Below the pieces are notes generated by a model. It did no database searches. It worked only from the letters and a program-made list of their open reading frames with translations, and was not told the origin of the DNA. The translations under genes were made by a program, and so were the position numbers. From Phaeobacter sp. 11ANDIMAR09 (lineage in GTDB: Bacteria > Pseudomonadota > Alphaproteobacteria > Rhodobacterales > Rhodobacteraceae): a stretch of DNA of 37,510 nt. Positions 11,096 to 28,840 of this stretch are shown piece by piece; the first letter of the stretch is position 1, and each line of letters opens with the position of its first letter. The stretch is taken from positions 1 to 37,510 of the forward strand of contig NZ_LIKT01000033.1 in NCBI RefSeq assembly GCF_001294455.1, in the 5' to 3' direction.

Positions 11096-11130
11096 CCAAT
11101 TTCCAAATCCGAATGGCAGCTCTTTTGGTC

Positions 11131-11754: not shown

Positions 11755-11776
11755 GTTCTTGTCTCCATGCCGCACA

Positions 11777-12499: not shown

Positions 12500-12508
12500 G
12501 TGTTTCTC

Positions 12509-12920: not shown

Positions 12921-12959
12921 TCTCGTGTCTGCCCTGTCCAGCCCCGGCTCTGGTTTCCT

Positions 12960-13704: not shown

Positions 13705-14340
13705 TCACGCGGCAAGATCAACTCGCGCCGAGGTGCCTTGCATCTCATGCACCTTCTGCACCGCGGGGTCCGACGCCAATTTACGTAGGACGCGGTCGAT
13801 GTTGGGATAGGCGCTGGTTGGCTTGTCCAGATCATAGCCCCAGCTTGCCATCGGATAGAGGAAAGCATCTGCAACGGACTTGCGGTCCCCGACTATCCAG
13901 TTGCGTCCCTCAAGATGCTGGTCGATCTGCGTCAGCGCCTTGTCTATCAGGATGTGGCTGGCGGCCTGCACTGGCGGTTGTCCTTCCGGGGCGACGGTAA
14001 AGCGCATTGGCGTGAAATGAAGCCAGAAATAAGGGTGCAATGTTCCAGTCAGGTAGGCCAACCAGCGATGCAGGTCTTTGCGTTCGGCGCTATCGGGCGC
14101 CGGACCGATCTTTGCATCAGGGTGCTGATCAACGAGATAGAGCAGGATTGCCATCCCTTCCGGCAGAGCCATGTCGCCGTCCACCAAAGTCGGCACCACA
14201 CCCGACGGGTTCAGTTCAAGATAATCCGGCGCCTTCATTGCGGCGTGGTCAAGATGTTCGACCTCATAGGGTTTGCCGATCCATTCAAGGGCGATATGCA
14301 TCGCGGTAGAACAGGTGCCTGGGGCAGAAAAGAGTTTCAT
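13705..14340 (-). CDS. Glutathione S-transferase family protein
   Basis: A 211-residue cytosolic two-domain protein of normal GST length. The thioredoxin-like N-domain (residues 1-80) shows MKLFSAPGTCSTAMHIALEWIGKPYEV with a likely catalytic Ser or Cys near residue 10. The cis-proline motif GVVPTLVDGDMALPEGMAILLYLVD (about 48-72) carries the glutathione-binding Glu. The helical C-domain (about 85-205) contains the N-capping motif VADAFLYPM. The product would conjugate or reduce electrophiles with glutathione. It is the last gene of a minus-strand operon with a SnoaL-like protein and an NAD(P)H-dependent oxidoreductase, which suggests quinone or electrophile detoxification. Confidence 0.92.
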   Translation of the reverse strand: MKLFSAPGTCSTAMHIALEWIGKPYEVEHLDHAAMKAPDYLELNPSGVVPTLVDGDMALPEGMAILLYLVDQHPDAKIGPAPDSAERKDLHRWLAYLTGTLHPYFWLHFTPMRFTVAPEGQPPVQAASHILIDKALTQIDQHLEGRNWIVGDRKSVADAFLYPMASWGYDLDKPTSAYPNIDRVLRKLASDPAVQKVHEMQGTSARVDLAA

Positions 14341-14374
14341 GTCTGGTGTCCTTTCTGGAGTTGGGTATGGCTGA

Positions 14375-14773
14375 TCACGCCTGCACCTGCAGCTTGTGGG
14401 TCTTCAGACGCCATCCTTGCGCGGTTTTCACCAGCGTTTCGAAATAGCGCCCAACCACGAAGTGCTTGATCTCGCCGTCATGGTTCTGGATCGCCTGGCT
14501 GACGCAGCTCAGTTCAGCGGTGTCGTTATTGCCATCAATTACAAAGTTGCTTTGCACATGGGTCAGGCCCGGCGGGAAGACCGCAGCGTTTTCGGTGATC
14601 CATTCTACGATCGTGTCGAGCCCTTCCAGATGGATGCCCATCTCTTCAACGATGAACTGCGCATCATCGACAAACAGATCACGCATGGCCTCGGGGCCAT
14701 TTACGTCAACGGCCAGCGCAAAGCGCCCCATCAGGTCTTGGATTTCGATTTTGTCTCCGGTGGTAAGTGCCAT
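14375..14773 (-). CDS. SnoaL-like (NTF2-fold) protein
   Basis: The frame is open to 14848, but the ATG at 14773 follows CAGGAGC at ideal spacing and gives 132 residues. The sequence has the cone-shaped NTF2-like pattern: an N-terminal helix pair (DKIEIQDLMGRFALAVDVNGPEAMRDLFVDDAQF), then GIHLEGLDTIVEWI, and a beta sheet ending RYFETLVKTAQGWRLKTHKLQ. Such proteins act as small hydrolases or isomerases, or as ligand binders. The substrate is unknown. It lies 34 bp upstream of the GST start and 86 bp downstream of the oxidoreductase stop, on the same strand as both. Confidence 0.85.
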   Translation of the reverse strand: MALTTGDKIEIQDLMGRFALAVDVNGPEAMRDLFVDDAQFIVEEMGIHLEGLDTIVEWITENAAVFPPGLTHVQSNFVIDGNNDTAELSCVSQAIQNHDGEIKHFVVGRYFETLVKTAQGWRLKTHKLQVQA

Positions 14774-14859
14774 GGTTTGCTCCTGTTTCAGTCGGGGATT
14801 GGCAAAAGGATGCCGTTCGCCCAAGCAGGCGCTACGGCTGGATTTCATGTGAAGCTGAA

Positions 14860-15423
14860 TTAAGCAGGCACTCGTTCTTTTCGAAGGTGCAGATCAGCGA
14901 TGGGCGTTGTGGCATAGGAGATCACCGCCGGGATGCTCGCATCGACTATGGCGCGATCCCGCGACATAGCGCTGTGCAGCACAAAGTGAGGCAAGTAGCG
15001 CATTCCAACCATTTTTGCGGTTTGCTCAAACGGGGTAAGGAACTCAGTCATGGTGAAGCTGTTGTAAGAGCCGCTGGCATAGCTCTTCGCGGGGCCGCCA
15101 GTGGAAATCACCAGCCCCAATTCCTTGCCAACCAGCTGATCTCCGCCAGGTCCGTAGGCAAATCCCGGTAACAGCACCTGATCAAGCCAGGCCTTGAGCA
15201 CCGGTGGCGCCGAATACCAGTAGAACGGAAATTGCATCAGCACCCGATCCGCGCTTCGCAAAACCACGTGTTCAGCCCTCGGTTCGAACCGCATTTCGGG
15301 GCCGCCGACCGCCGTCAGGTCGCGGGTGGTGACCGTTGGTTCCCGCGACAGAGCCTCATACCAGCGGCGATTGACCGACGAGGTGTCCAGATCGGGATGG
15401 GCAGTCAAAACAAGCGTTTTCAT
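14860..15423 (-). CDS. NAD(P)H-dependent oxidoreductase, flavodoxin-like quinone reductase family
   Basis: A 187-residue flavoprotein of the KefF/MdaB/NQO type. The FMN phosphate loop LTAHPDLDTSSVN is at residues 6-18. The QFPFYWYSAPPVLKAWLDQVLLPGFAYGPGG block (about 64-94) and GLVISTGGPAKSY (about 102-114) are hallmarks of the family. These enzymes perform two-electron reduction of quinones, avoiding semiquinone radicals. It is the first gene of the GST/SnoaL operon and is transcribed away from the adjacent LysR regulator, an arrangement in which the regulator usually controls the operon in response to a quinone or aromatic inducer. Confidence 0.9.
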   Translation of the reverse strand: MKTLVLTAHPDLDTSSVNRRWYEALSREPTVTTRDLTAVGGPEMRFEPRAEHVVLRSADRVLMQFPFYWYSAPPVLKAWLDQVLLPGFAYGPGGDQLVGKELGLVISTGGPAKSYASGSYNSFTMTEFLTPFEQTAKMVGMRYLPHFVLHSAMSRDRAIVDASIPAVISYATTPIADLHLRKERVPA

Positions 15424-15549
15424 ATCAGGCCTCAGATGTTTTCCATCCGATGTCAGATGGGGTCGTTTCAGTGTTGCCTCACCCTAAGCCCAGCTGATAT
15501 TTACAACAATTGACTGAACTTCAAACACTATGGTGCAGGATATACACCA
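15424..15549. promoter_or_regulatory. Divergent LysR/oxidoreductase promoter region
   Basis: A 126-bp gap between divergent genes. It carries an inverted repeat CCATC-N8-GATGG at about 15443-15460 and an AT-rich segment near 15500-15510. It is the expected place for LysR binding, but no unambiguous T-N11-A pair could be selected. Confidence 0.4.
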
Positions 15550-16452
15550 ATGAGACTGCCGCTTTCGACCCTTGAAGTGTTTAACGCCATTGCCCGCGAG
15601 GGCAGCATGAGTGCCGCTGCGCAGGCGCTTGGCATTAAGCGATCAACCGTGAGTCACCAGTTGAAAAGCTTGGAAGATCAATTGGGGACAGCGCTATTTG
15701 TGCGCACCACGCGTGCGATCAACCTGACCGAAGCCGGGCGCGCCTTGATGCGCGCGTCTGGACCAGCGTTCGAGCAGCTGGCCGATGGGCTGGAAACTGC
15801 ACGCTCTGCTGGTCATTCGGCACGTGGAGAGCTGAAACTGGCAGCACCTGAATTTGCCTATCAGCTGCTGCTCAGGGATAAGCTTGTATCTTTCCAAGCG
15901 AAATACCCCGAGATCAGTTTGGAACTGTCCCTGACAGATGCGTTCTCAGATATTCTTCACGAAGGGTTGCATGCCGGGTTTCGGCTTGGGGGACTGGTTG
16001 CGCAGGATATGATTGCCAAGTCACTCACCTCTGCGCTGACCTCAGCCGTGGTGGCCAGCCCAGCCTACCTTGAGAGACATGGCGTCCCAGAGTTTCCCAA
16101 AGACTTGTTGAACCACAATTGCCTTGGCTATCGCTTTCAAAGCTCAGGTCAATTGGCGCCCTGGGCTTTTGCCAGTTCTGACGGAGACTACACGGTTATC
16201 CCCCCTGGAAACCTTGTCGCAAACTCGGTCCCGGTCACGATTGATATGGCGATGCAGGGGCTAGGCATTGCCTATACCTTCCGCGAGATTTGCGAAGTCA
16301 GTCTTGGGCGCAGCGACCTTGTGGAAATCTTGCCCGGGCATCGTGTCACAATGCCCGGTATCAATATTTACTTCCCACAGGAATACCGGTCCTTCATCCC
16401 GCTCCGCTTGCTCATCAAGCACCTGCAAGTGGACGAAACAGCACGGAATTAA
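15550..16452 (+). CDS. LysR-family transcriptional regulator
   Basis: A 300-residue protein of typical LysR length. The winged helix-turn-helix is at residues 1-60 (LSTLEVFNAIAREGSMSAAAQALGIKRSTVSHQLKSLEDQLGTALFVRTTRAINLTEAG). The effector domain runs from about 90 (RGELKLAAPEFAYQLLL) and carries a typical second lobe with GLGIAYTFREICE. AGGA precedes the ATG at modest spacing. It is divergent from the oxidoreductase/SnoaL/GST operon and is therefore its likely activator or repressor. The inducer is unknown; aromatic or quinone compounds are plausible. Confidence 0.93.
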   Translation: MRLPLSTLEVFNAIAREGSMSAAAQALGIKRSTVSHQLKSLEDQLGTALFVRTTRAINLTEAGRALMRASGPAFEQLADGLETARSAGHSARGELKLAAPEFAYQLLLRDKLVSFQAKYPEISLELSLTDAFSDILHEGLHAGFRLGGLVAQDMIAKSLTSALTSAVVASPAYLERHGVPEFPKDLLNHNCLGYRFQSSGQLAPWAFASSDGDYTVIPPGNLVANSVPVTIDMAMQGLGIAYTFREICEVSLGRSDLVEILPGHRVTMPGINIYFPQEYRSFIPLRLLIKHLQVDETARN

Positions 16453-16775: not shown

Positions 16776-16974
16776 AGACGCGGTGGCTGCTGAGGCCAGT
16801 GGTGAACTTGATGTCAAAATGGCTATTTGATGGAACCTATTTCTTTCACCGTTGCCCAAGACTCCATTGGGTCGGAACGTCTGGGAATTTGTTGCTACTC
16901 TCAAGAGCTCAGATGAAAAACGGGAATCCACTTCTTTTGCTTTGTTTCCCCGAAAATCATTCTCCGTCTCGACA

Positions 16975-16991
16975 GTTCAGCCCGCATTCAG
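16975..16991 (+). promoter_or_regulatory. PmrA-like box before the PAP2 gene
   Basis: GTTCAG-CCCGC-ATTCAG: two TTCAG half-sites with 11-bp periodicity, 43 bp before the PAP2 start. They match the CTTCAG-N5-CTTCAG sites at 20185-20201 and 24325-24341. The layout fits OmpR-family regulators of the PmrA/QseB type; binding by the response regulator at 22343 is inferred. Confidence 0.5.
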
Positions 16992-17033
16992 GATCGAGAA
17001 CTAGCTGCTCTCCAACTTTGGGGAGAGATCGTG

Positions 17034-17576
17034 ATGTTCGGGAACTTCATCAAAACCAGAAACGGTCTGGTTTTAACTTCACTGCTGCTGACTGTGCTTT
17101 TGGGGCGCGGTCAGGTCGACCGTACAGGCGATCACCTGCAACTTGTCCTGCCAGTTGCTGCCTTGACTTGTTCGGTGGTCAACGGTGAGGCCGCCAGCTA
17201 CCTGTTCCGGCTGGTTTCTGTCGCAGCTGTCGTGCATGGCTCAAAGAGAGGCTTGCAAAACGCCCCAATCAATTTGCGGCCGTCCGGAGCGCAACACGGC
17301 TTCCCCTCTGGGCACACTGCGGCGGCTGCCTTTGGCACCAGCAGCCTCGTCAACAGTTGCGTGAAGAAAAATCCCTGGGTTAAGGGGGCCATAATCCTGA
17401 GCGGTGGATATGTTGGCGCGTCGAGGATCGAAGTTGGCGCGCATTTCCTGTTTCAAGTCGTTGCTGGTGCCCTACTGGGATGGTTGGGGGAAAGATCTCA
17501 TATCTTGCTTCGTGCTTTGCGAACTCTGGCGCTTCGACACTACCGAAGGCTGGTGCGCAAGGCCGTTTTTTCCTAA
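17034..17576 (+). CDS. PAP2-superfamily membrane phosphatase (non-canonical active site)
   Basis: A 180-residue integral membrane protein with an ATG at 17034 (a GTG at 17031 is possible) behind GGGGAGAG. Members remove phosphate from lipid phosphates such as undecaprenyl diphosphate, phosphatidylglycerol phosphate or lipid A. The three signature blocks are recognisable: NLRP (Arg82), FPSGHT (His94) and SRIEVGAHFLFQ (Arg131, His137). Two usual residues are replaced. The lysine expected seven before Arg82 is Gln, with Lys/Arg a few residues upstream, and the aspartate expected four after His137 is Gln. The nucleophilic His remains. A TTCAG-type box upstream ties it to the two-component system at 22343-24320. 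Confidence 0.85.
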   Translation: MFGNFIKTRNGLVLTSLLLTVLLGRGQVDRTGDHLQLVLPVAALTCSVVNGEAASYLFRLVSVAAVVHGSKRGLQNAPINLRPSGAQHGFPSGHTAAAAFGTSSLVNSCVKKNPWVKGAIILSGGYVGASRIEVGAHFLFQVVAGALLGWLGERSHILLRALRTLALRHYRRLVRKAVFS

Positions 17577-17624
17577 GGCGCAGCGCCGCTATTGGCCGCT
17601 CGACTTTCTGAAAAGACCTTCTGT

Positions 17625-18123
17625 TTACTCTAGGTGATCTGCGATTGCTGCGATACCTGCCGCGGCACGGAGATCGTCTAGGTCGTTGCCATCTGCATCT
17701 TGACCCGGAGCGCCTGCAATTCCAATCACACCAATCACTTGTCCATGGTAGAGGATGGGTGCACCGCCAGAGAGAGCAGGCCAATTTCGTTGAAGGCAGC
17801 CCCCAGGGATGGCTCATGCGCGTTTCTGCTTCGATGACCGCAGTCGCCGTACGACACGATGCTGTGGTGATTTCCTTTCGGCTTCTGATTTGAACGTTTT
17901 GGGGGAAGGCCCCTTCTCGCATCAGTTGCACACCCGGCTGAGCGCGCTGATCAACAACGGTGACAGTGGTGGCAAAGCCCATCGCGGCACAGGCTTGCGA
18001 GGCAACGGTGGCGACCTCTTGCACCCAATCCAGAGGGGTACTCATTTCCATATGGGGTGCGGGCTGAGCCTGTGCTGTCAATGTCGCGCCAGAGAAGGCA
18101 ATGATAGCCAGTGTTTTTTGAGA
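17625..18123 (-). pseudogene. GlcG/HbpS-like heme-binding domain protein, frameshifted
   Basis: A minus-strand reading resembles secreted GlcG/HbpS proteins: a hydrophobic leader (TLAIIAFSGATLTAQAQP), then STPLDWVQEVATVASQACAAMGF, VTVVDQRAQPGVQLMREGA and SRKEITTASCRTATAV. Near 17800-17815 the frame is lost. The rest of the domain, PALSGGAPILYHGQVIGVIGIAGAPG followed by AAAGIAAIADHLE, continues in another frame to a TAA at 17627-17625. No ATG, GTG or TTG precedes the leader, so the start may be lost too. I call it a pseudogene; a sequencing error could explain the frameshift but not the missing start. It lies just downstream of the DUF1554 gene. Confidence 0.7.
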
Positions 18124-18159
18124 GGGGAGGATATGGTGGGGATGCCTGCCTATTTGCTG

Positions 18160-18182
18160 AAAAGGCAATTGGGGCCTTTCAA
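18160..18182 (-). terminator. Weak hairpin after the DUF1554 gene
   Basis: Immediately after the DUF1554 stop the minus strand reads AAAGGC-CCCAATT-GCCTTTTC: a 6-bp stem, 7-nt loop and short T-run. It is a possible intrinsic terminator but too short to be certain. Confidence 0.35.
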
Positions 18183-18184
18183 GA

Positions 18185-18871
18185 TTAGTCGCTGGCAAAG
18201 CAGTAGAACCGCCCTGCACCACCGGTCTGCGCAAGCGCTTCTAACGAACAGCCTTTGCTGGCATGGGAGGAATTCCAGGAGGTGTTCCAAGAGCTCAGAC
18301 GGTCGTGGTGGCCGACCATTGCCTGCCCAGAGTTGCTGCCGTTGGTCCAGTTGTCACAGGTTAGGTTATTGAACCGCATGGCACCGGCGGCAAAGGCTCG
18401 GCCATGACTGTCTGATCCGGTTAGAATGTCATGCTGATTTGCGACCCGCTCTGGTCGATTGCGCCCCGGAACAATTGCCGCAGTCTCTGTCAAAGCCGTG
18501 CTTTGCATGATCCGGTTGCTGTCGCGCTGGATATCCCCGTGCAGGTCAGCAACAGTCTCCGCGATCAGAACGCCCTTGGCATTGAACCAAGGCCCTTTGC
18601 CGATCCGGTCGCGCGCATTGATGGCCTGAGTTTCACGGCTCCCATGGGTGCTGAGGTAAGCGCGCCAAACGCGATGGCCTGCGCCAACCTGCGTTGCCAG
18701 GGTCTGACAAATGGCATCAGCGCCTTGCAGACCATCCAAATTCCCAGAATGGGTGGAACTGGTGACAAAGAACGACAGCTTTGGGGAAACCTCTTCCTGG
18801 GCACTGGCTGGAAAAACCGCGAGAGTAAGGGAGGTCGCTGAGGCGATACCGCATCTAAGAATTTGTTTCAT
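18185..18871 (-). CDS. Secreted DUF1554 (endostatin/lectin-like fold) protein
   Basis: The frame extends to 19027, but the ATG at 18871 has AGGAGA upstream and begins a clear Sec signal peptide (MKQILRCGIASATSLTLAVFPASA-QEE), giving 228 residues. The body has the family's blocks: KLSFFVTSSTHSGNLDGLQGADAICQTLA, AGHRVWRAYLSTHGS, NARDRIGKGPWFNAKG and FNNLTCDNWTNGS, with paired cysteines that probably form disulfides in the periplasm or outside. Members are related in fold to endostatin and C-type lectins, and a ligand-binding role is likely but unproven. The gene is 106 bp downstream of the DUF3500 gene, with a stem-loop between, and upstream of the decayed GlcG gene. Confidence 0.8.
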   Translation of the reverse strand: MKQILRCGIASATSLTLAVFPASAQEEVSPKLSFFVTSSTHSGNLDGLQGADAICQTLATQVGAGHRVWRAYLSTHGSRETQAINARDRIGKGPWFNAKGVLIAETVADLHGDIQRDSNRIMQSTALTETAAIVPGRNRPERVANQHDILTGSDSHGRAFAAGAMRFNNLTCDNWTNGSNSGQAMVGHHDRLSSWNTSWNSSHASKGCSLEALAQTGGAGRFYCFASD

Positions 18872-18900
18872 TATAGGAAATTCTCCTGATCGAGGAAAGT

Positions 18901-18945
18901 GATCGAGGCCACGACGAGGTGTAGTGAGTGGTGGTGGCCTCGATC
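18901..18945 (-). terminator. Stem-loop between DUF3500 and DUF1554 genes
   Basis: GATCGAGGCCAC (18901-18912) and GTGGCCTCGATC (18934-18945) form a perfect 12-bp stem with a 21-nt loop. No T-run follows, so it may be an RNA-processing or partial termination site that lowers downstream expression rather than a full terminator. Confidence 0.45.
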
Positions 18946-18977
18946 TGAAGGGGCCTCGGCACCTTCGGTGACTTGGA

Positions 18978-20099
18978 TTAATGGCTTTCCGAAATGTGAC
19001 GCTGCAGCCAGTCGGCACCGTAATCATTACTCGGATCGCGGACGATTACATGCGGATGCGTGTTCCAATCAAATCCGGTGCGCTGATCGACAAAATCGAT
19101 CAGGATGGAGGGACCAGAGACACGATAGAAGATCTGTTCGCTTCCATCCGTTGGCCCCATCCACATGAAACGCAGATTTTCCATGCCGTCATGTTTGATC
19201 TTGGCCAGATGATCCGCTGCGACATCAAAATCGGAATTGCCGACAAATTCCTTGACCAGAGCCCACATCAGGGATCGCTGCTCTTGCGTCAGGTCCGCAG
19301 CTTTGATGCCTCGCTGTTCCACAACCCGATCATTCGTTCCTGGACCGGCGAACTCAACAGCGCCGAATTTGTTGAAAACGACCTTGTCGGCGACAACGGC
19401 TATTCTGCGCTGATCGGCGCTCAGGGAAGATAGCAGCTCATATCCCCGGTTGCGCTCCTGAGGCAAAAAAACGTGACCGGCCTGTGCTCCTGTAGATATA
19501 ACTGCAGGGTCTGAACCGTAGAACATCGGTACAAAGGTCGCTTTTCCATCGACCACTGTGAAGTTCGCCCCCAAATGATGGCCCGTGAGCATATAGCCCC
19601 AGCTGCTTTCAGTGCTTGGATCACCAAAGAAGGCGAGCCAGTAGTTTACAGCCCCCAAGTGGTTATTCTTATCAACAAACTTGGCACTTTCCAGCGGGAG
19701 GTTTTCCCCTTCAGCCTTGAGCGCCTCATCCCCACGCACAGCGGCCCAGATCTTGTGGTAGCCCTGTGAGCTGGTTGAGGAGACCAGCAGTTGATGCAGC
19801 AGCCCCCGCTGCGCCAGGGTAAGACGTGAAATTGGCAAACCAATGCGTTCAACAGATGACACTGGCGCATTGCTCCAATGGGTGCGGTCGGCGTCATTTA
19901 CAAATTCAAACACAGCCGCGCTGCGCTGCTCCTCGCTGAGGCTGTTCAGAAAACCTGTCGCTGCGGTGGTCATTTGCTGGCCGCTACGCGCGAACTGGGG
20001 CACGGCTATTGCATGATCGTCGTGGGCCGCGCCCAGAGTTGGAAACATCAGGCCGCAGCCCAGTGCCAGGGCCAATAGCTGTTTGGAATGGGTATGCAT
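18978..20099 (-). CDS. Exported DUF3500 family protein
   Basis: A 373-residue protein with a signal peptide (MHTHSKQLLALALGCGLMFPTLGAA-HDDH). The mature protein begins with a His/Asp cluster. Family features are TGFLNSLSEEQRSAAVFEFVNDADRTHWSNAP, RIGLPISRLTLAQRGLLHQLLVSS, YWLAFFGDPSTESSWGYMLTGHHLGANFTVV and RFMWMGPTDGSEQIFYRVSGPSILIDFV with HPHVIVRDPSNDYG. The family has no biochemical function known to me. The conserved histidines (GHHLGAN, NTHPHV) suggest a metal or ligand site. The gene reads away from the glycosyltransferase operon across a perfect 19-bp inverted repeat built from CTTCAG boxes, so both sides are probably controlled by the same regulator. Confidence 0.88.
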   Translation of the reverse strand: MHTHSKQLLALALGCGLMFPTLGAAHDDHAIAVPQFARSGQQMTTAATGFLNSLSEEQRSAAVFEFVNDADRTHWSNAPVSSVERIGLPISRLTLAQRGLLHQLLVSSTSSQGYHKIWAAVRGDEALKAEGENLPLESAKFVDKNNHLGAVNYWLAFFGDPSTESSWGYMLTGHHLGANFTVVDGKATFVPMFYGSDPAVISTGAQAGHVFLPQERNRGYELLSSLSADQRRIAVVADKVVFNKFGAVEFAGPGTNDRVVEQRGIKAADLTQEQRSLMWALVKEFVGNSDFDVAADHLAKIKHDGMENLRFMWMGPTDGSEQIFYRVSGPSILIDFVDQRTGFDWNTHPHVIVRDPSNDYGADWLQRHISESH

Positions 20100-20152
20100 G
20101 GGGTCCTCATCAGACTTAATAACGATTATGAGGATGCATCTGAGGCGCGATG

Positions 20153-20201
20153 CTGAAGCCTGTCTGAAGCTCCAGGCGATATAGCTTCAGACAGGCTTCA
20201 G
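20153..20201. promoter_or_regulatory. Perfect 19-bp inverted repeat carrying two PmrA-like boxes
   Basis: CTGAAGCCTGTCTGAAGCT (20153-20171) and its exact reverse complement (20183-20201) flank an 11-bp centre. Each arm contains CTTCAG-N5-CTTCAG, one box pointing at the DUF3500 gene and the other at the glycosyltransferase gene. Because the neighbouring genes diverge, an operator is more likely than a terminator. Confidence 0.65.
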
Positions 20202-20248
20202 GTTCGGGAGGGAAGGCCTTTTCAACCTTTCTTGCCGGAGCCGCAGTG

Positions 20249-20977
20249 ATGCCCAACCTGTCCATCGTCATCATCACCTTGAACGAAGCGCAACGCTTGC
20301 CGCGCCTCCTGCGCGATCTAAAACAGCAAACCTGGCGGGATTTTGAGATCATCCATGTGGATAGCCGCAGCGACGATCAGACCCTGCAGATCTCGCAGGA
20401 TTGGCGTGACTGTTTCGAGTATTATGACATCATCAGAATGCCACAGCGCGGCGTCAGCCTGGGGCGAAATACCGGCGCCCGCCATGCTGCCTGTGATCGG
20501 TTATTGTTCCTGGATGCCGATACCCGTTTGGCCCCAGATTTCCTTGAACGGGCGACGCAAGAATTGCAGCAGCGAGATTTGGAAGTTGGCATAGTTTGTA
20601 TGGATTCTACAGGCTTGCCGCTGCACCACAAAGTCGGATTCTCAGTTTTTAATTTCGGCATTCGCCTGACTTCGCGGTTTTTCCCCACTGCCATCGGGGC
20701 CTGCCTGTTTTCGGAACGAGAGATACACGATGAGATCGACGGATTTGATGAGCGGCTGAGCCTTTGTGAAGACTGCAACTATGTACTGAAGGCTTCGAAG
20801 GCGCCGCTCTCTACCTTAGGAGTTCTGCGCGCGCGGTTTTCCTTTGACCCCAGGCGCTTGGATCAAGATGGGACGCTCAAAACCGGGTTCACCTATCTAC
20901 GTGCAAACCTGCATCGCTTCTTTCACGGTGAACTGCTCAAGGACGAGATCCCGTATGAGTTTGGGCACTATCGGTAA
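20249..20977 (+). CDS. Family 2 glycosyltransferase
   Basis: A 242-residue GT-A fold enzyme. The ATG at 20249 is preferred over the GTG just before because GGAG lies 8 bp upstream. Visible features are the N-terminal strand LSIVIITLNEAQRLPRLLRDL, the Asp in IIHVDSRSDD, the metal and sugar-nucleotide DXD motif FLDADTRL (residues 89-91), and the acidic pair ED (174-175) as likely catalytic base. No membrane helix is seen, so it is cytosolic or peripheral. The donor and acceptor are not predictable. It is the first gene of a tight operon with DedA-LssY, response regulator and kinase. Its context suggests modification of a lipid-linked or envelope glycan. Confidence 0.88.
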   Translation: MPNLSIVIITLNEAQRLPRLLRDLKQQTWRDFEIIHVDSRSDDQTLQISQDWRDCFEYYDIIRMPQRGVSLGRNTGARHAACDRLLFLDADTRLAPDFLERATQELQQRDLEVGIVCMDSTGLPLHHKVGFSVFNFGIRLTSRFFPTAIGACLFSEREIHDEIDGFDERLSLCEDCNYVLKASKAPLSTLGVLRARFSFDPRRLDQDGTLKTGFTYLRANLHRFFHGELLKDEIPYEFGHYR

Positions 20978-20983
20978 AGTCAG

Positions 20984-22342
20984 ATGTTTGAGTTTTTTTG
21001 GTCTCAGGCGGAGACCCTCCTTTATCCTGCCCTGGCATTTATTGCCTTTCTCGACACCCTTATTGGTATCGGCTTTTTTGTCTTTGGCGAAGTCGCCTTT
21101 GTCACAGCAGGCGTGACCTTTGCCCGTTCCGGCGATCTTGGGATCATCGCCTTGGTCCTTGTGGCAGGTTGGGCGGGAGATATCACAAGTTTCTTCTTAG
21201 GGCGTAGTTTTGGCTCTCGGGTTGCCCACCGCGTCCTGCGCCCTGTCAAACGTCGCCGACAGTGGCGCAGGGCACGTAGACTACTTACGCGCCATGGTTT
21301 GGGCTTTGTCATCGTGTCACGTCTGCTAGGACCTGTCGCCTGGATTACGCCCTTTCTTGCCGGAACACTTGGGATGTCACCGCTGCGGTTCGCCCTTGCC
21401 TCATTTCCAGCTGTGATGATCGGCGGAGGGCAGTTCATCCTTCTGGGGTATCTCGGGAAGAGCACCGTATCACACTGGCCATTGGCCTTGCAGTTCTTGA
21501 CACAGCATTTCGGCTTTGTCCTGCTTTGTTGTGCTATCTGCATTGGTGTTGCCGTGGCCTGGTTTTTTAGTGGCGGTGGCCGATTGCGCCGTTTTCTGTG
21601 CTCGGCACTGACAGCCTTGCTCATATTCGTGGCCACCAATCTGTATTACTTTTTTGGCAGTGACGCCCATGCGGCCTCAGCGGCAAAAACGGCAACGGCT
21701 CTGGAGATTTCTGGGATTTGCGAGGTTGTAAATACTGAGTTTGTTGCAGTGCCGGGGGACACAGAACTGCACCTTCCGCAGCCAATCAATGTCATGTTGG
21801 TCTCCGCAACACCACCGGAGCAGTTGATGACAGATCTGGGCTGGCAGAAGAATTTGACCTTCAGCCAGGATAGGGTAGGCCTGCACACCTATGCAAAACT
21901 GCTGTGGAAGCAACAACCGCCGGTCTCCGAACTGTACTTTAACGGAACCCCTGCAAGATCCGCTTTCCAATTGCCAGGGACCTTAGCGCAAAGGGTTCAC
22001 ATCAGGTGGTGGACTTTTGGTCAGCACAATGGCTTGCCGGTCTACCTCGGTGCCATCAGCCGGGATGAGGAGTTGGCAATCAAATACTATCGCGCCATAC
22101 CTGCTCTGCTGCACGATATAGACCCTGAGGTCGACAAAGCGAGAGATTTGCTAATGAAACAGGCCCAATTAGGCTCGAAGGTGCAGGTTCAGGGGTTGAT
22201 CCCTTTGCAACAACCCGTCCCGGATGGTGTTGAAAGTGACTATCAAACCGACGGGCGTATTCTAGTGCTTTCGGACACAAAGCTCCACGGGGCACCGGGT
22301 GAACAGACTTGCCTCGGTTGGTCATCGGATGGAGAGGCATAG
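20984..22342 (+). CDS. DedA-family membrane protein fused to LssY C-terminal domain
   Basis: A 452-residue protein beginning 6 bp after the glycosyltransferase stop. The N-terminal half (about residues 1-200) is a DedA/SNARE-associated domain: FGEVAFVTAGVTFARSGDLG, the GWAGDITSFFLGRSFG re-entrant segment, and the basic SRLLGPVAWITPFLAGTLGMS motif. DedA proteins move lipid carriers such as undecaprenyl phosphate across the membrane. Another helix lies at about 200-225. The C-terminal LssY-type domain (about 245-440) holds QPINVMLVS, LGWQK, RVHIRWWTF and LPVYLGAISRDEELAIKYY. Joining a DedA domain to LssY suggests a periplasmic or cytoplasmic accessory domain acting on the transported lipid. The next gene starts at the base after the stop. 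Confidence 0.88.
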   Translation: MFEFFWSQAETLLYPALAFIAFLDTLIGIGFFVFGEVAFVTAGVTFARSGDLGIIALVLVAGWAGDITSFFLGRSFGSRVAHRVLRPVKRRRQWRRARRLLTRHGLGFVIVSRLLGPVAWITPFLAGTLGMSPLRFALASFPAVMIGGGQFILLGYLGKSTVSHWPLALQFLTQHFGFVLLCCAICIGVAVAWFFSGGGRLRRFLCSALTALLIFVATNLYYFFGSDAHAASAAKTATALEISGICEVVNTEFVAVPGDTELHLPQPINVMLVSATPPEQLMTDLGWQKNLTFSQDRVGLHTYAKLLWKQQPPVSELYFNGTPARSAFQLPGTLAQRVHIRWWTFGQHNGLPVYLGAISRDEELAIKYYRAIPALLHDIDPEVDKARDLLMKQAQLGSKVQVQGLIPLQQPVPDGVESDYQTDGRILVLSDTKLHGAPGEQTCLGWSSDGEA

Positions 22343-23002
22343 ATGCGGGTCTTGTTGGTCGAAGACGAAAAACTGATTGCCGATGCCATCAAGGTTTCGA
22401 TGGTCCGAGACGGCTATCACGTAGATTGGGTGGAGGATGCCAACAGTGCTGAAGAGGCGCTCGTCACATCCCAGTTCGATCTGGTGCTGCTGGACCTCGG
22501 ACTTCCCGGGCGCGATGGGTTGAGCCTGCTGCAATGGCTGAGAACTAAGGGCCGCAATGAACCCGTTATCATTCTAACGGCGCGGGAGGCGGTTGAGAAC
22601 CGGATCGAGGGGCTTGACCATGGCGCTGATGACTATTTGACCAAACCTTTTGACATGAAAGAGATGCTGGCAAGGGCGCGGGCTCAGATACGGCGGTCCC
22701 ACGGCCGCAGCTCCCCGAAGCTGACCCACCTGGACATAGAGGTTGATCCGGCGGCGCATACCGTTTCCCAGTGCGCTCAGGCAATTGAACTCGCCCCGCT
22801 GGCCTATCAAGTGTTGGTCTTGCTGCTGGAGCGCAAGGGGCGGGTTGTCTCCAAAGACGACCTCGCAGAAAGCCTTTATGGTTGGGAAGATGGCGCCGAG
22901 AGCAATACGGTTGAAGTCTATGTGTCACAGATCCGGCGCAAGATCTCTGGCAATTTGATCCGCACCATTCGGGGCGTCGGCTACATAATCGACAAGGACT
23001 GA
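22343..23002 (+). CDS. PmrA/QseB-like two-component response regulator
   Basis: A 219-residue OmpR-family regulator whose ATG immediately follows the DedA-LssY stop. The receiver has the acidic pair in LLVEDEK, phospho-acceptor Asp51 (LVLLDLGLPGRDG), Thr79 (IILTARE) and Lys101 (YLTKPFD). The winged-helix domain holds ELAPLAYQVLVLLLERKGRVVSKDDLAESLY and ESNTVEVYVSQIRRKI (recognition helix), then RTIRGVGYII. The sequence style matches the PmrA/QseB branch, whose members bind direct half-sites 11 bp apart. Exactly such TTCAG repeats lie at 16975, 20153-20201 and 24325, so these genes are its probable regulon. Confidence 0.93.
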   Translation: MRVLLVEDEKLIADAIKVSMVRDGYHVDWVEDANSAEEALVTSQFDLVLLDLGLPGRDGLSLLQWLRTKGRNEPVIILTAREAVENRIEGLDHGADDYLTKPFDMKEMLARARAQIRRSHGRSSPKLTHLDIEVDPAAHTVSQCAQAIELAPLAYQVLVLLLERKGRVVSKDDLAESLYGWEDGAESNTVEVYVSQIRRKISGNLIRTIRGVGYIIDKD

Positions 23003-23009
23003 AATTGCC

Positions 23010-24320
23010 ATGACTTCGATACGTTCCAGAATTCAAGGACGACTGATCCCATTGGTTCTATTGTGCTGGATCGCGGCGTCAGGGCTCGTCTATTTCGGGA
23101 CACGTGCAGAACTGCGTGACGCTTTGAATGCCCAATCCGACCTCATGGCGATTGTGATTGCGAGAATGCAGTCAGACGAGCTGGACCCTTCCGGCTTTGG
23201 CGAAGGGTTGGAACGCTATGAAGATGATTACCTGATCCGTGTCTGGAGTGCTCAAGGAGAGCTGCTTTTTGACTCACAAACCCTTTTGCCAGGCGGAAGG
23301 ATGGCCTTTCCAAGAGCAGAGAAACCAACAGCCTTGGGCCCGGATTGGCGACAAACAGAATACATGACACGATCGGGCGCGCGAGTTTTGATTGCTCGGC
23401 TTAAGGAGGAAACTAATGAGCTGGTCTGGCAAGTCGCACTCACTTCACTGCTGCCTTTGGCGCTGGCCTTCCTAGGGTCGGTAGCCGCTGTTTTGCTGTT
23501 TGTCCGTGACGGGTTGAGGCCTTTGACGCGCCTATCCCATGACCTTATGGAACGGTCTGCTGACGATCTTCGGGATCTGCCCTCGCAGGATCAGGCACAA
23601 GAGTTGCAGCCCATTGTGACTTCTCTCAATGGGCTTTTTACGCGCATTCGCGGATTTGTCGCCCGCGAACGTCAATTTGTGGATGACGCCGCGCATGAGT
23701 TGCGCACCCCCCTGACCGTGATCAAAGCGCAGTGTCAGGCAATTGACCCCGACGCACTGGATGCAGAGACTAAGGCGCGGCTGGACAATATCGTTCTGGG
23801 CGTTGACCGGATGGCCAACCTGAGCAATCAATTGCTGGGTCAAGCCAGAGCCGAACAGGAGGCAGCCCCGGCGCAACGGATCAAGGTGTCCCCCTTGTTA
23901 CGCGGTGTCGTTGCAGATTTGCTGACGGAAGCGGATCAGGCAGAGGTTGAATTGGCGCTAAACTGTGAGGCTGAACCCGAGGCAACCTGCTTGCCAGAAG
24001 ATCTCAGTGCGATTGTACGAAACCTCATCGAGAACGCGATCAAATACTCCTCTCGCCCCGGCGAGGTTCTCATCACCCTGACGGCAACATCAATCAGGGT
24101 AGAAGACAATGGAAGAGGAGTTCCGGAACACTTGTCAGACAAGGTTTTTGACCGGTTTTTTCAAGTGCCAAATGCCTCCCCTCCTACCACAGGAGCGGGA
24201 CTGGGACTTTCGATAGTGCAGGCTTTAGCGCGTAGAAATGGCATGACTGTATCCGTCACCAAAAGCCCGGTCCTCGCAGGCGCCATGTTCGAGGTGGGTT
24301 TGAGAACAGACCCTTCCTAG
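23010..24320 (+). CDS. Sensor histidine kinase, QseC/PmrB-like
   Basis: A 436-residue inner-membrane kinase that starts 7 bp after the response regulator. Helix 1 covers residues 11-30. A periplasmic domain (about 31-140) includes the acidic LERYEDDY segment, which could bind cations. Helix 2 is at 141-165, and a HAMP-like linker follows. The HisKA motif FVDDAAHELRTPLTVIKAQ places the phosphorylated His at 229. ATPase boxes are IVRNLIENAIKYS (N), VEDNGRGVP (G1), FDRFFQV (F) and GAGLGLSIVQALARRNG (G2). It would phosphorylate the adjacent regulator. The periplasmic signal could be metal, cationic peptide or envelope damage; sequence alone does not decide. Confidence 0.93.
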   Translation: MTSIRSRIQGRLIPLVLLCWIAASGLVYFGTRAELRDALNAQSDLMAIVIARMQSDELDPSGFGEGLERYEDDYLIRVWSAQGELLFDSQTLLPGGRMAFPRAEKPTALGPDWRQTEYMTRSGARVLIARLKEETNELVWQVALTSLLPLALAFLGSVAAVLLFVRDGLRPLTRLSHDLMERSADDLRDLPSQDQAQELQPIVTSLNGLFTRIRGFVARERQFVDDAAHELRTPLTVIKAQCQAIDPDALDAETKARLDNIVLGVDRMANLSNQLLGQARAEQEAAPAQRIKVSPLLRGVVADLLTEADQAEVELALNCEAEPEATCLPEDLSAIVRNLIENAIKYSSRPGEVLITLTATSIRVEDNGRGVPEHLSDKVFDRFFQVPNASPPTTGAGLGLSIVQALARRNGMTVSVTKSPVLAGAMFEVGLRTDPS

Positions 24321-24324
24321 ACCT

Positions 24325-24341
24325 CTTCAGCTTGCCTTCAG
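24325..24341 (+). promoter_or_regulatory. PmrA-like box before the multicopper oxidase gene
   Basis: CTTCAG-CTTGC-CTTCAG, a perfect direct repeat with a 5-bp spacer that starts 5 bp after the kinase stop and ends 50 bp before the oxidase ATG. It has the same hexamer and spacing as the arms of the 20153-20201 repeat, which supports control by the adjacent response regulator. Confidence 0.6.
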
Positions 24342-24390
24342 CTTACCTGTGCATTGCAGGTCAAAGCATAGGGTAAGTCTGGTGAAAATT

Positions 24391-25887
24391 ATGAATAGAC
24401 GGCACTTTTTGGCTCTCGGCGGGGCTTATGCGGTGGCACCTTTTGGCGGTCGTGCCCTGTTTGGACAAACCACTGCGCGACCGCTTCCTATCCCACCTCT
24501 TCTGGATTTTATGGCTGGAGATGAGAGGCCAGTCGCGTTGGACCTGTTGCAATCGCAACATGACTTTGGAACGGGAGTCAAAAGTCAGACCTTTGGCATT
24601 GGCCAATCCTATTTGGGTCCGGTGATCAAAGCAAAATCTGGCCACGACCTCCCCTTTGAAATCACCAACCAGCTTGACGAAGTGTCAACTCTGCACTGGC
24701 ATGGCCTGCATATTCGAGGCGATGTCGATGGCGGGCCGCATCAGGAAATTCAACCTGGTCAGACTTGGCGACCTGTGCTCCCAGTCTCACAAAGGGCCTC
24801 AACAAACTGGTTTCATTCCCACACCCATGGCCGCACGGCCCGTCAGACACATATGGGTCTCGCTGGGGTTATGCATATTGAAGATGATGCAAGCCTGTCG
24901 GCCGATTTTCCAAATGGCTATGGCATCGATGACTTCACCCTGGTGTTGCAGGACAAGCAGTTCGGCGATTTGGGCCGGATGACCTACGGGCTGACCGGCG
25001 ACGTGCTGGAAAATGGCTTCCAGGGCGACACATTGGTGGTCAACGGCACGGTCGCCCCAGTGCATCAAATGGTTCCCAGTGGGTTGGTACGTTTGCGCCT
25101 CCTGAATGCCTGTAACGCAAGGTTCTTAAAGATCTCCTTGTCTGATATGCAGACATTGCATGTGATCGCCTCGGATGGTGGTTTCCTTGCATCGACGGTG
25201 GAGACCGATAGCATTGTCATGTCGCCAGGAGAAAGATACGAGATCCTTTTAGATATGACCAATCAGGACCGCATCGGTCTAGAAGTTTCACTGAACGGAA
25301 ATGAAGGTCAAGGCGATCTGTTCGAAGGCCTTTGGCAGGGCCTTTGGGGGGTAAGTAACTTCGTAACCGCCATCATTCTAACCCGCGACCCATTGCGTCC
25401 AGGATTGCAGGCTTCGATGCCAAATCACTTAGCGAACCTCCCCGTCGCAGACCCTCTCTCGGCAGTCCGGAAACGTGAATTCTTGCTCAATATGGGCGAT
25501 GAGGCGGATCTTGCAGCAATCGCCACATCTTGGGGCAATTTATGTGGTGGCGGTGTCGGAATGGGGATCAACGGCCGCCCTATGAAGATGGATCATGTGA
25601 ATTTTGGCGTGAAACGCGGACAACCAGAGATCTGGCGTATTCAGTCCGAGGAACAGCTGCACCCATTTCATATTCACGGCTGCTCCTTCCGCATCCTACG
25701 CCAGAATGACGTTCCCCCTCCGGTCTATGCGTCGGGCTGGAAAGATATGGTGTCCGTTCAAGGTGGCTGGTCTGAAGTGCTTGTCTCCTTTGATCACGAG
25801 GCCACAAAGACGGCTCCCTATATGTATCATTGCCACATTCTAGAACATGAAGACTGCGGAATGATGGGGCAGTTCACTGTCAGTTAG
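24391..25887 (+). CDS. Multicopper oxidase, CueO-like, Tat-exported
   Basis: The frame begins at 24349, but the ATG at 24391 (or the GTG at 24382) starts a twin-arginine leader MNRRHFLALGG, giving 498 residues. All four copper-binding motifs are present: LHWHGLHIRG (HWHG at about 102), NWFHSHTHG (about 140-147), HPFHIHGCSF (about 424) and YHCHILEHEDCGMM (about 480-488). The last supplies the Cys for type-1 copper, as in HCHxxxHxxxxM. Three cupredoxin domains of normal length are expected. Such enzymes oxidise Cu(I), Fe(II) or phenols in the periplasm and protect against copper. It lies just downstream of the kinase behind a CTTCAG direct repeat, which links copper or oxidative protection to this two-component system. 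Confidence 0.93.
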   Translation: MNRRHFLALGGAYAVAPFGGRALFGQTTARPLPIPPLLDFMAGDERPVALDLLQSQHDFGTGVKSQTFGIGQSYLGPVIKAKSGHDLPFEITNQLDEVSTLHWHGLHIRGDVDGGPHQEIQPGQTWRPVLPVSQRASTNWFHSHTHGRTARQTHMGLAGVMHIEDDASLSADFPNGYGIDDFTLVLQDKQFGDLGRMTYGLTGDVLENGFQGDTLVVNGTVAPVHQMVPSGLVRLRLLNACNARFLKISLSDMQTLHVIASDGGFLASTVETDSIVMSPGERYEILLDMTNQDRIGLEVSLNGNEGQGDLFEGLWQGLWGVSNFVTAIILTRDPLRPGLQASMPNHLANLPVADPLSAVRKREFLLNMGDEADLAAIATSWGNLCGGGVGMGINGRPMKMDHVNFGVKRGQPEIWRIQSEEQLHPFHIHGCSFRILRQNDVPPPVYASGWKDMVSVQGGWSEVLVSFDHEATKTAPYMYHCHILEHEDCGMMGQFTVS

Positions 25888-26686
25888 AGAGGCTTGTTTT
25901 GAAAGAGGTCCCTGCAGGAACCGGTGCAATCGGAGAGCGCAGAGCCAGAAGACCGCAGTGTGGCTGCGATCGGGAAGACTGTCAGGTGATCTTTCAGTTG
26001 TGGAATTTTGAAGGTGCATCTTCCAGTCACTGACTGCTTTGAACGGGGAGCAGTCCTTACAGCGCTTCTAAGGTTGATCATTGGCCAGGCAGCTCGGCTT
26101 GGCGTCGACGGAGGCTATGCGCAGAAAGCGGAACTCGCAAAGTCGATGCTAAACTGATCAGGCCCATGACGCCTTCCGGCCCATTGCCGACATTCGTCAC
26201 CCCGAAAATCTAGCCGACCACGTTCCCCGAAGCGGACTTTGGTGCATGGAGCAGCATTTCACGGCATCCAGATAACTGGAACACGGAAAAGCTGCTGTTC
26301 CGCAATTCTTGCGACCTGTGAATTCTGGAAACAACTAAGCTGTCTCCGCAGTGCTGGTTGTTCTGAAGCTCGACCGTTCAGCCAGGGGGGGTACCCACCT
26401 TATCAAAATCATGGACCACTTCTTAGAGAAGGAGATTGGCTTTCAGAGTCTGACCGAAGAAATTGGCACAACGACACCCAACCGCAGGCATGCAACTGCA
26501 TTTTGAAGCAGACTTGACAAGGCTTCTTTATCCACGTTGCCCACCCTGCTACGCGCTCATTGAGACTTGATATGTTGCAACATTTTGATCACTTTGCAGA
26601 AATTGGTCATGTAGGGTCCATCTTTTGCCAGTTTTTTGTTGACGCAAAACACCTTATGCAACGCGACCAGATTTGGAGTAAGAGTT
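25888..26686. other. 800-bp gene-poor gap containing repeat copy F
   Basis: The gap between the oxidase and the MORN gene. Apart from the repeat described separately, the stretch 26160-26640 holds short frames (such as 26239-26517) without recognisable domains, and a TTGACA near 26512 with no good -10 partner. It probably includes the MORN-gene promoter. Confidence 0.4.
26005..26160 (-). repeat. Dispersed intergenic repeat, copy F
   Basis: Minus orientation and diverged: GTCACTGACTGCTTTGAAC, then GGAGCAGTCC, GGCTATGCGCAGAAAGCGG, CTCGCAAAGTCGATGCTAAAC. The GGCTATGCGCAGAAAGC block is shared exactly with copy D. It marks the right edge of the 16975-25887 island. Confidence 0.55.
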
Positions 26687-28840
26687 ATGTCATCTCGCGA
26701 TCCTTCGGACATCGGACATTCGACAAACGGTATGACGCTGCCCGAGCCTGGCCAATTGGACTACCCTTTGCGCGTAGAGAAGGTTCATGTGCAGGTCGGA
26801 GACTACGTAGACGAAAAGACATATGTTTACGTGATAATAGATCGAAGCGGTGTTCCGTTTGCCTTTCAACCTGACAAGCCGGGCCAAATCACCAAGGTTC
26901 TGATCGCCGAAGGTGATATTTTGAACTCACCACAGCGACTGTTCGAACTCTGCTGTGATGAACAGGCCCAAATTTTTTCAGCAGGTCGGGCAATCAAAAC
27001 GGAGTTTGCGAAAAGCGTTCGCCCGAAGGCCCAAGAAGACACATCAAATCCTCCGGCCCTATCAATCGCAAAGCCCGAAGCCGCACCAACTGCAGTTGCC
27101 ACGCCTGCACGATCTGGTGCTCGGCTCGGAGCGTTTGGTGTCGTAGCAGGTATTACGCTCCTTGTTGGTGGTATTGTCGGCGCCACCGGCGTTTTCGATG
27201 GCCTCTACACGCGCTTCAACATTTGGATGGATCCCAACAACTATGGCTATGAGTCATACGCAGATTATCTTGAACAGAAGACGAATCCGGCAGCCATTCC
27301 CCACCATTTCTCTGAAGGTGCTTCCAATTGGCGCGGGATCGAATATGCAGGAGAGCTAAAAAACTACCAACCACATGGTCAGGGAAAACTGGCACTCGCC
27401 GGTTATGAGGAATATTTTGGGACATGGATCGACGGCGAACGGCAACCCGAGGGTTACACCAAAATCCTGTTTCGCGATGCACGGCGCGAGGGCACGTTCA
27501 ACGATGACCTGCTATTGCACGGTAACGGCACGCAGGTATTTGACAATGGAGCTCGATACACAGGTCAGTTCAAAGCTGGCGTCCCACACGGTCGTGGCAC
27601 TTACACTTTTGCGGAAGGCACAACATATGAAGGCGACCTCTTAGACGGAAATCGCCACGGAAAAGGCACTCTGACATTTCCAAGCGGGGATACATATGAA
27701 GGCGATTTCAAGGAAAATGAACGCACCGGCCAAGGCGTCTACACGTTCAAGAATGGCAGTCGCTACTCCGGCGGCTACTTGAACGGAAAATGGCACGGCC
27801 AAGGAACGATTCAACATGCAGACGGTTCATCGTATCAAGGCGGCTTTGCCTCCGGTGTTCGTCATGGAAAAGGCACTCTGACTTTTGCCGGTGGCGAGAT
27901 TTACGCAGGTGATTTCTTGAATGGTGCACGGACCGGACAGGCAAAACTCACCTACCCAGACGGCGCTTACTACGAAGGCACATTTTTACAGGGGCGTGCG
28001 AACGGGCGTGGTGTGTTTCGAAATGCGGCTGGAGATATCACCACAGGCGAATTCAACAATGGGCTGGCCAATGGAAATGGGACGATCGAATACGCAAATG
28101 GCGACAGCTATACTGGCAACTTCAAGGACTTCCGCCGAGAGGGAATGAGCAAATTCGAAAAGGCGGCAGAAATCCGACTCAAAGCTGAACATGATCGCTG
28201 GGCTTGGGTCGAAAGGATGCGGCAACGCCACGACGATCGAAAAGAAGCGCGCAGACGAATGAACCGCGCTGGAAACAGGAACGCAGCTGGACAGAGTCTG
28301 GAAGACGATCAGAGCGCACCTGGCCGCATATTCTGGGCCTATATGCATCCAGGCGACCTGCCTGAGGAAGTGGGCCAAGCTATTCCTTGTCCCGGCGGAT
28401 ATGTTGGGCAAGCGGAATGTTCTGTGGTGCGCAAGGAAAAGATCTGGAGAATGCACAAAGGATGCGGCTTAAATGGCCGAGGGCGCAGCAATGCCGAAGC
28501 TGCTGACACAGAGAGAATTGTGGTTTTCGAGGCCCGTGGTGATCTAAAAAATGTGCGTGAATCTGTGAAAGCGCAGGTTGAACGAGGCAATAATGGAGAC
28601 ACTCCACCTCACCTTAGAACCCGTATGAGCGAGGGCTTGTTGACCAGTTTCCTTGTCGACGACATTTGGAACGATCTTCTGGATTTTAAAGCCCCCGTGA
28701 ACCAAAGCACCTATGAAGCCACCGGAGTAAGAGCCACACGGGTCTTTTTTCGGACGTACACGTCTTTGGCCACCTATACCCTGACTAGTGGCTGCTATGT
28801 CGACATCAACATAGGAGAAGGACCCACACGCATGCGGTAA
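26687..28840 (+). CDS. Single-pass membrane protein with lipoyl-like domain and about 12 MORN repeats
   Basis: The frame starts at 26636, but the ATG at 26687 has GGAG 8 bp upstream, giving 717 residues. Residues 17-88 resemble a biotinyl/lipoyl beta-barrel (LPEPGQLDYPLRVEKVHVQVGDYVDE and PGQITKVLIAEGDILNSPQRLFEL) without the modified lysine. A Pro/Ala linker leads to one membrane helix (about 148-172). About twelve 23-residue MORN repeats follow (about 219-497), of the form YEGDFxxGxxHGxGTxTFxxGxx, then a charged helix (KAEHDRWAWVERMRQRHDD). The C-terminal domain (about 540-717) has several Cys (PCPGGYVGQAECSVVRKEK, MHKGCGLNG, SGCYVDI). MORN repeats bind lipids or proteins. I know of no named protein with this order. 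Topology and function are open. Confidence 0.85.
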   Translation: MSSRDPSDIGHSTNGMTLPEPGQLDYPLRVEKVHVQVGDYVDEKTYVYVIIDRSGVPFAFQPDKPGQITKVLIAEGDILNSPQRLFELCCDEQAQIFSAGRAIKTEFAKSVRPKAQEDTSNPPALSIAKPEAAPTAVATPARSGARLGAFGVVAGITLLVGGIVGATGVFDGLYTRFNIWMDPNNYGYESYADYLEQKTNPAAIPHHFSEGASNWRGIEYAGELKNYQPHGQGKLALAGYEEYFGTWIDGERQPEGYTKILFRDARREGTFNDDLLLHGNGTQVFDNGARYTGQFKAGVPHGRGTYTFAEGTTYEGDLLDGNRHGKGTLTFPSGDTYEGDFKENERTGQGVYTFKNGSRYSGGYLNGKWHGQGTIQHADGSSYQGGFASGVRHGKGTLTFAGGEIYAGDFLNGARTGQAKLTYPDGAYYEGTFLQGRANGRGVFRNAAGDITTGEFNNGLANGNGTIEYANGDSYTGNFKDFRREGMSKFEKAAEIRLKAEHDRWAWVERMRQRHDDRKEARRRMNRAGNRNAAGQSLEDDQSAPGRIFWAYMHPGDLPEEVGQAIPCPGGYVGQAECSVVRKEKIWRMHKGCGLNGRGRSNAEAADTERIVVFEARGDLKNVRESVKAQVERGNNGDTPPHLRTRMSEGLLTSFLVDDIWNDLLDFKAPVNQSTYEATGVRATRVFFRTYTSLATYTLTSGCYVDINIGEGPTRMR

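Follow-up and report, generated by a model that had tools for sequence, protein, structure and literature searches.

The DNA analyzed here, a 37,510-bp stretch of Phaeobacter sp. 11ANDIMAR09 (contig NZ_LIKT01000033.1, hereafter the window), is one contig of a 4.7-Mb draft genome and carries at positions 16,975 to 25,887 an island of genes in which a short direct repeat, TTCAG-N6-TTCAG, precedes each predicted transcription unit. One unit on the forward strand comprises a 242-aa GT2 glycosyltransferase (20249-20977; Pfam PF00535, E 2e-24; under the NCBIfam cut-offs, and with 19 bits against a cut-off of 529 not ArnC), a membrane protein in which a DedA (VTT) domain is fused to LssY_C (20984-22342; Pfam PF09335 and PF14067 and alignments; VTT 46.6 bits against a cut-off of 33.9, LssY_C 80.5 against 25), an OmpR/PhoB-family response regulator (22343-23002), and a QseC-like sensor histidine kinase (23010-24320; Pfam HisKA and HATPase_c). 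The receiver and winged-helix Trans_reg_C domains of the regulator both exceed their Pfam cut-offs (99.3 and 71.2 bits), and its recognition helix, ESNTVEVYVSQIRR, spans residues 186-199 and includes S195 and Q196, as assigned by Pfam, NCBIfam and alignment. The kinase is followed on the same strand by a CueO/FtsP-like multicopper oxidase (24391-25887) with a twin-arginine start, three Cu-oxidase domains in Pfam and the motifs HWH, HSH, HPFHIHG and HCHILEHEDCGMM, which we take to be the Cu-ligand motifs of multicopper oxidases. Its start was set at the ATG at 24391, since the alternative GTG at 24349 would nearly abut the repeat.

To the left lies a 180-aa PAP2-family phosphatase (17034-17576, + strand; Pfam PF01569, 44.3 bits, cut-off 27.2), whose 69% identical ortholog adjoins GT2 in Parasedimentitalea psychrophila (locus L043). 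The protein has the motifs PSGH and SR-x5-H and, as judged by eye, Gln at the position of the motif-3 Asp. An operon on the reverse strand encodes a DUF3500 protein (18978-20099; Pfam PF12006, E 9e-77), a DUF1554/LenF-like protein (18185-18871; LenF match weak) and, closing the operon, an HbpS-like protein (17380-18168; Pfam PF03928, residues 47-117 only). The latter gene is apparently frameshifted near 17780: its C-terminal part, as judged by eye, is read in another frame than the N-terminal part, which probably reflects either a broken gene or an error in the sequence. The gene identities proposed in a first-pass annotation of this DNA agree with Pfam, but DUF1554 falls below its cut-off (23.8 against 27.5 bits) and the HbpS-like gene is an additional third member behind it.

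An exact pattern search of the window finds TTCAG-N6-TTCAG exactly four times, at 16976 (+), 20153 (-), 20186 (+) and 24326 (+), all before genes of the island. The operator-like box before PAP2 (16976-16991, +) reads GTTCAG-N5-ATTCAG and lies 42 bp from the start codon; the other three are CTTCAG-N5-CTTCAG, at 53 bp from DUF3500 (20153-20169, -), at 47 bp from GT2 (20185-20201, +), and, directly after the kinase stop, at 49 bp from the oxidase ATG (24325-24341, +). The boxes at 20153 and 20185 point outward, back to back, at an offset of 33 bp. As read from the sequence, tandem direct-repeat half-sites with an 11-bp period thus stand before the operon of the regulator itself. The first-pass claim of a shared operator-like box ahead of every unit holds, as do the CTTCAG pairs that it placed at 20153-20201 and 24325, with the box at 16976 being the GTTCAG/ATTCAG variant. 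In shuffled sequence the window is expected to contain a mean of 0.15 exact copies, and four were reached in 0 of 100 shuffles. When one mismatch is allowed, just two further sites appear in the window, with 3.35 sites in total expected by chance.

In the whole genome the exact pattern occurs 19 times, versus two occurrences of the reversed pattern. All 15 copies outside the window fall within open reading frames (ORFs) of at least 110 aa, and at 13 of these the covering ORF has a Pfam match at E <= 0.001 (weak for L010); the ORFs covering copies L004 and L012 have none at this threshold. By the same rule the 16976 box also falls in an ORF (16799-17188, +, 129 aa), but we treat this box as intergenic because the ORF overlaps the PAP2 start in a different frame and matches no Pfam family. 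A genome search for CTTCAG-N5-CTTCAG with one mismatch yields 33 sites, 30 of which were examined as loci. Among these, the three exact CTTCAG pairs of the window are alone in having both a start codon 30-65 bp further on and no covering ORF above 78 aa, and no regulon member outside the window was found among the 30 of 33 sites. At the sensitivity of this search the predicted regulon is limited to the island.

Conservation of the box in related genomes was proposed in the first-pass annotation as a test, and exact boxes were found in all five other loci with an orthologous regulator, other genera included. These regulators come from P. psychrophila (L043, 84% identical), Thalassovita autumnalis (L034, 68-70%), Pseudovibrio flavus (L036, 68%), a further member of the family (L051, 65%) and a more distant relative (L109, 52%), and their loci contain 2, 1, 2, 1 and 2 exact boxes, respectively. 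Together with the window this gives 12 boxes in six of six loci, versus a mean of 0.15 (largest 3) for permuted words and at most 3 for other spacings; for the five outside loci, 200 simulations gave a mean of 0.12 and a maximum of 2 against the 8 observed. Before orthologous genes the half-sites are mostly conserved and the spacers have diverged, as in the box upstream of the L043 PAP2 ortholog, which keeps its TTCAG halves and has an altered spacer. In P. psychrophila the boxes, two of four with one mismatch, stand before PAP2, GT2 and an MRJP-type gene that is followed by cytochrome c, and after the kinase; a box just after the kinase is common to the window, L043 (one mismatch) and L051. 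A second box in Pseudovibrio precedes a BOF/YgiW-like gene, and the two boxes of L109 separate the regulator from a MipA-FrsA gene pair. Among the 14 box sites collected for distance and flanking sequence, 13 have an assigned start codon (chosen by us, and including a GTG in L051 and a TTG for MipA in L109), which lies 39-54 bp after the box in 12 cases and 26 bp after it at the L051 GTG. Downstream of the box, 13 of 14 sites have T at position 3 and 11 of 14 have A at position 12, which is no more than suggestive of a fixed -10 element. On plasmid pQS-2 of P. psychrophila, the gap that separates the kinase from the MRJP-type gene contains a short open frame (L043, 8015-8141) behind a one-mismatch box; it was noticed by eye and possibly encodes a small protein.

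The DedA/LssY protein of the island is rare. At E <= 1e-20 it occurs in the genus only in the source genome among 12, and at E <= 1e-40, with the source genome counted, in 4 of 390 genomes of an order sample and 1 of 385 of a class sample; five named loci come from the genome collection. Five plasmid records match the protein, one of them closely (pQS-2). GT2 adjoins DedA/LssY in eight of nine loci, the exception being L045, and the fetched stretches of two Photobacterium GT2-DedA/LssY loci contain neither regulator nor kinase. No exact box was found in any of the five DedA/LssY loci that have another regulator or none (L035, L037, L038, L044, L045).

The nearest NCBIfam families of the regulator are PmrA (BasR; NF007928, 219.7 bits) and QseB (NF007663, 219.1 bits), which agrees with its first-pass assignment to the PmrA/QseB branch, though both scores are under the cut-offs of 330 and 345; the heavy-metal family (CopR/SilR/CzcR-type, TIGR01387) scores 180.2 bits (cut-off 279.2). 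Likewise, the kinase reaches 210.3 bits for QseC (NF007664, cut-off 475) and 126.5 for the heavy-metal family. The closest solved relatives of the regulator include PmrA/BasR (4s04; E 1.2e-43, gapless over residues 1-216). With PmrAB (BasRS) the system shares the OmpR/PhoB branch, a direct repeat of 6-bp half-sites with the 11-bp period recognized in the first-pass annotation, and envelope-related targets. In contrast to the PmrA box, CTTAAG-N5-CTTAAG, which is absent from the window even with one mismatch, the half-site here is the subfamily version CTTCAG, and residues 193, 195 and 196, which are H, H and N in PmrA, are Y, S and Q. QseBC/PreAB with ygiW resembles the island in its QseB- and QseC-like proteins and local autoregulated neighbourhood, and the box before a BOF/YgiW-like gene in Pseudovibrio recalls the reported activation by Salmonella PreA of ygiW and of its own operon (PMC2653508). 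Unlike that system, the island proteins remain under the QseB and QseC cut-offs and the gene cargo differs. A DedA domain in a PmrA-branch regulon also brings to mind the DedA proteins of lipid A modification and colistin resistance, such as Burkholderia thailandensis DbcA, which is reported to be needed for modification of lipid A (PMC7835334), but here DedA is fused to LssY_C and paired with a short non-ArnC GT2. The oxidase shares with CueO its three domains, ligand motifs and twin-arginine leader, but scores 478.3 bits in two stretches against a CueO cut-off of 525 (NF008205) and sits in an envelope regulon.

The changed half-site is matched by a change in the recognition helix. Four outgroup regulators (L022, L023, L052, L053; 42-45% identical) have an exact CTTAAG-N5-CTTAAG upstream, and L054 (48%) has a one-mismatch copy further upstream, while nine regulators with S195-R196 have TTCAG-N6-GTCAG, L032 having GTCAG-N6-GTCAG instead. 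These boxes led to the idea that the fourth base of the half-site is specified by residue 195. We surveyed 75 related regulators, chosen by similarity to the window regulator, for boxes in the 250 bp that precede the regulator, leaving out L092, L055 and L021, which duplicate the loci L022, L109 and L054, respectively. A single mismatch was tolerated in CTTAAG-N5-CTTAAG, with its 12 fixed bases, whereas the TCAG types, with 10, had to match exactly, and the GTCAG-N6-GTCAG pattern was added after part of the results had been seen. CTTAAG is found for 14 of 27 H195 regulators and a TCAG-type box for none; conversely, among 29 S195 regulators a TCAG-type box is found for 18 and CTTAAG for none, and neither type is found for any of the 19 regulators with another residue 195. 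Residue and box are both readable in 32 of the 75. In the rows outside the set that formed the idea (22 H195, 15 S195), CTTAAG versus TCAG-type counts are 10/0 and 0/9 (Fisher p 1.1e-5), or 10/0 and 0/8 without GTCAG-N6-GTCAG (p 2.3e-5); these p values overstate independence, because on the tree just seven label changes are required among the related sequences. The S195-Q196 regulators form one clade with support 96/89.

Passages of the structural literature place these residues at the DNA. In a PmrA crystal structure Asn188 and Asn196 are described as reading bases and His195 as contacting them (PMC4660055); an earlier PmrA model names His193 and His195 as likely specificity determinants, and the same source describes a bond from PhoB Arg201, equivalent to position 196, to guanine (PMC3973317). 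Y193, S195 and Q196 of the window regulator are assigned by the gapless PmrA alignment. The box and the protein residues that would read it appear to have changed together in evolution. The 33-bp back-to-back offset recurs in L109, and among S195-R196 rows with a box the offset is 33 or 34 bp in 13 of 17 and 21 bp in L071 and L076, with no such pair in L078 and L081. Outward-facing [TG]TCAG-N6-[TG]TCAG pairs were also noted near S195-R196 regulators at 33-34 bp in L024-L032, L101, L103, L105 and L108, and [TG]TCAG pairs at 21-23 bp in L071, L073, L074, L076 and L080. A literature search that covered few subscription papers and no supplements found no report of a CTTCAG direct repeat as a response-regulator binding site; two papers in which TTCAG occurs along with alphaproteobacterial two-component regulators seem unrelated, judging by title and the opening of the abstract, and the main text of a P. 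aeruginosa binding atlas gives neither TTCAG nor CTTAAG.

We consider it quite probable that the segment forms a two-component regulon of the PmrA/QseB branch that is self-contained and regulates itself, with a derived operator and a likely output on surface or carrier lipid. In the proposed mechanism, the kinase would respond to an envelope condition by phosphorylating the regulator, a dimer of which would bind TTCAG-N6-TTCAG (mostly as CTTCAG-N5-CTTCAG) head to tail some 40-55 bp before the start codons. From such an activator position near -35 it would switch on PAP2, the DUF3500 operon, GT2-DedA/LssY with its own regulator and kinase genes, and the oxidase, with positive feedback. The operator may derive from the PmrA box by the change of CTTAAG to CTTCAG, matched by replacement of H195 by S and N196 by Q. 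The family functions of DedA, PAP2 and GT2 fit lipid-carrier handling. On account of these functions and of the Burkholderia DedA requirement for lipid A modification, we propose that GT2 may glycosylate a lipid carrier, DedA/LssY may move or recycle it, and PAP2 may remove phosphate. A surface or carrier lipid is the most likely target of the products, and modification of the carrier is plausible; the undecaprenyl-phosphate or lipid A modification cycle put forward at first pass is not supported as stated, its basis being family names only.

Several observations weigh against this picture. No scored box lies within 250 bp upstream of 13 of the 27 H195 and 11 of the 29 S195 regulators; among the latter 11 are five regulators of the window type, out of six S195-Q196 rows, whose boxes stand at the operon start or beside neighbouring genes instead of directly ahead of the regulator. 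The sole box of L051 is flanked by the kinase and a GT29-like transferase, with none before the regulator. The distant S195-R196 regulators L035, L044 and L045 (35-37% identical) are without such a box, and S195 alone therefore does not predict it. The small number of label changes on the tree belongs here as well, as does the 2013 PmrA model, which, unlike the later crystal structure, is described in PMC3973317 as giving Asn196 no half-site contact. Exact TTCAG-N6-TTCAG boxes also stand near other regulators (L061, L068, three in L073, L080, L081), amounting to seven in five of 69 loci (287 kb). The model of the DedA/LssY protein (AlphaFold; predicted local distance difference test, pLDDT, 72; predicted template-modelling score, pTM, 0.46) gave no match at E <= 0.001 in a PDB fold search, and binding and activation are themselves predictions from sequence.

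The exact copies elsewhere in the genome, together with those in loci of other regulators, would be expected if the boxes were chance occurrences or dispersed repeats of no regulatory role. This origin is very improbable and was rejected on the shuffles, on the word and spacing controls, which score far below the true pattern in the ortholog loci, and on location: the 15 outside copies, raised at first pass as a test of the proposal, are inside ORFs, while the four of the window precede genes at similar distances, and in ortholog loci half-sites are mostly kept as spacers vary. Somewhat less improbable, but still unlikely, is that another regulator of the host recognizes the boxes, with the encoded pair merely among the controlled genes. 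Cross-reading is conceivable, as S195-R196 relatives in other Alphaproteobacteria have TTCAG-N6-[GT]TCAG boxes and the source genome contains three matches of this regulator branch at E <= 1e-45. At E <= 1e-52, however, there are two, and the second best (L110) is G195-R196 with no box in 9 kb; moreover, boxes accompany the orthologous regulator in all six loci and are absent where GT2-DedA/LssY has another regulator or none (L035, L037, L038, L044).

Slightly more likely than reading by another regulator, though also doubtful, is a CopRS/CusRS/CueO-type system for copper or metal resistance, to which the lipid genes would be secondary. It would account for the box and copper-ligand motifs of the oxidase, and L045 joins a 58% identical oxidase to PAP2, DedA/LssY, PepSY, a ferric reductase and a two-component pair. 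Against it, both regulator and kinase are nearer to PmrA/QseB and QseC than to the heavy-metal families, no oxidase match appears in the stretches fetched for the other five ortholog loci, and in L045 the regulator is a different one and the TTCAG box is lacking. The copper link, based on one boxed oxidase here and the divergent cluster L045, is weak, and so is the copper-protection part of the first-pass proposal. In L045, from another genus, the divergent cluster (7879-16134) consists of ferric reductase, regulator, kinase, PAP2, PepSY, multicopper oxidase, methyltransferase and DedA/LssY.

Elsewhere in the window, a response regulator (7570-8403, +) is divergent to a resistance-nodulation-division (RND) efflux operon (OEP, HlyD, AcrB) that ends in a MipA gene (all within 805-9776), and a 458-aa ORF behind this regulator is probably its kinase. 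MipA is common to this operon and L109, where it is the divergent boxed neighbour of the regulator. Downstream of the island, 26636-28840 encodes a 734-aa protein with MORN repeats.

In our best reading, the island is a rare envelope regulon of the QseBC/PmrAB-like type, carried on a plasmid in one relative. The first-pass observation is confirmed and its interpretation partly supported; the most interesting part, the paired change in operator and recognition helix, is outside its claims. We advance tentatively, at a little less than an even chance, that this is a natural specificity switch, in which H195S and N196Q together with CTTAAG to CTTCAG (with R196 also GTCAG) would let a transferable envelope cassette run beside resident PmrA/QseB-type regulators without cross-reading, using the recurring 33-bp back-to-back pair. 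Natural changes of DNA specificity in this large family of regulators are difficult to observe, since operators have seldom been identified, and here box and residue can be read from sequence as a simple, testable code. In the same literature search LssY together with DedA was not found, and the matches listed for LssY alone were unrelated by title; the regulon may offer an entry point to the function of LssY_C and of the GT2-DedA/LssY pair.

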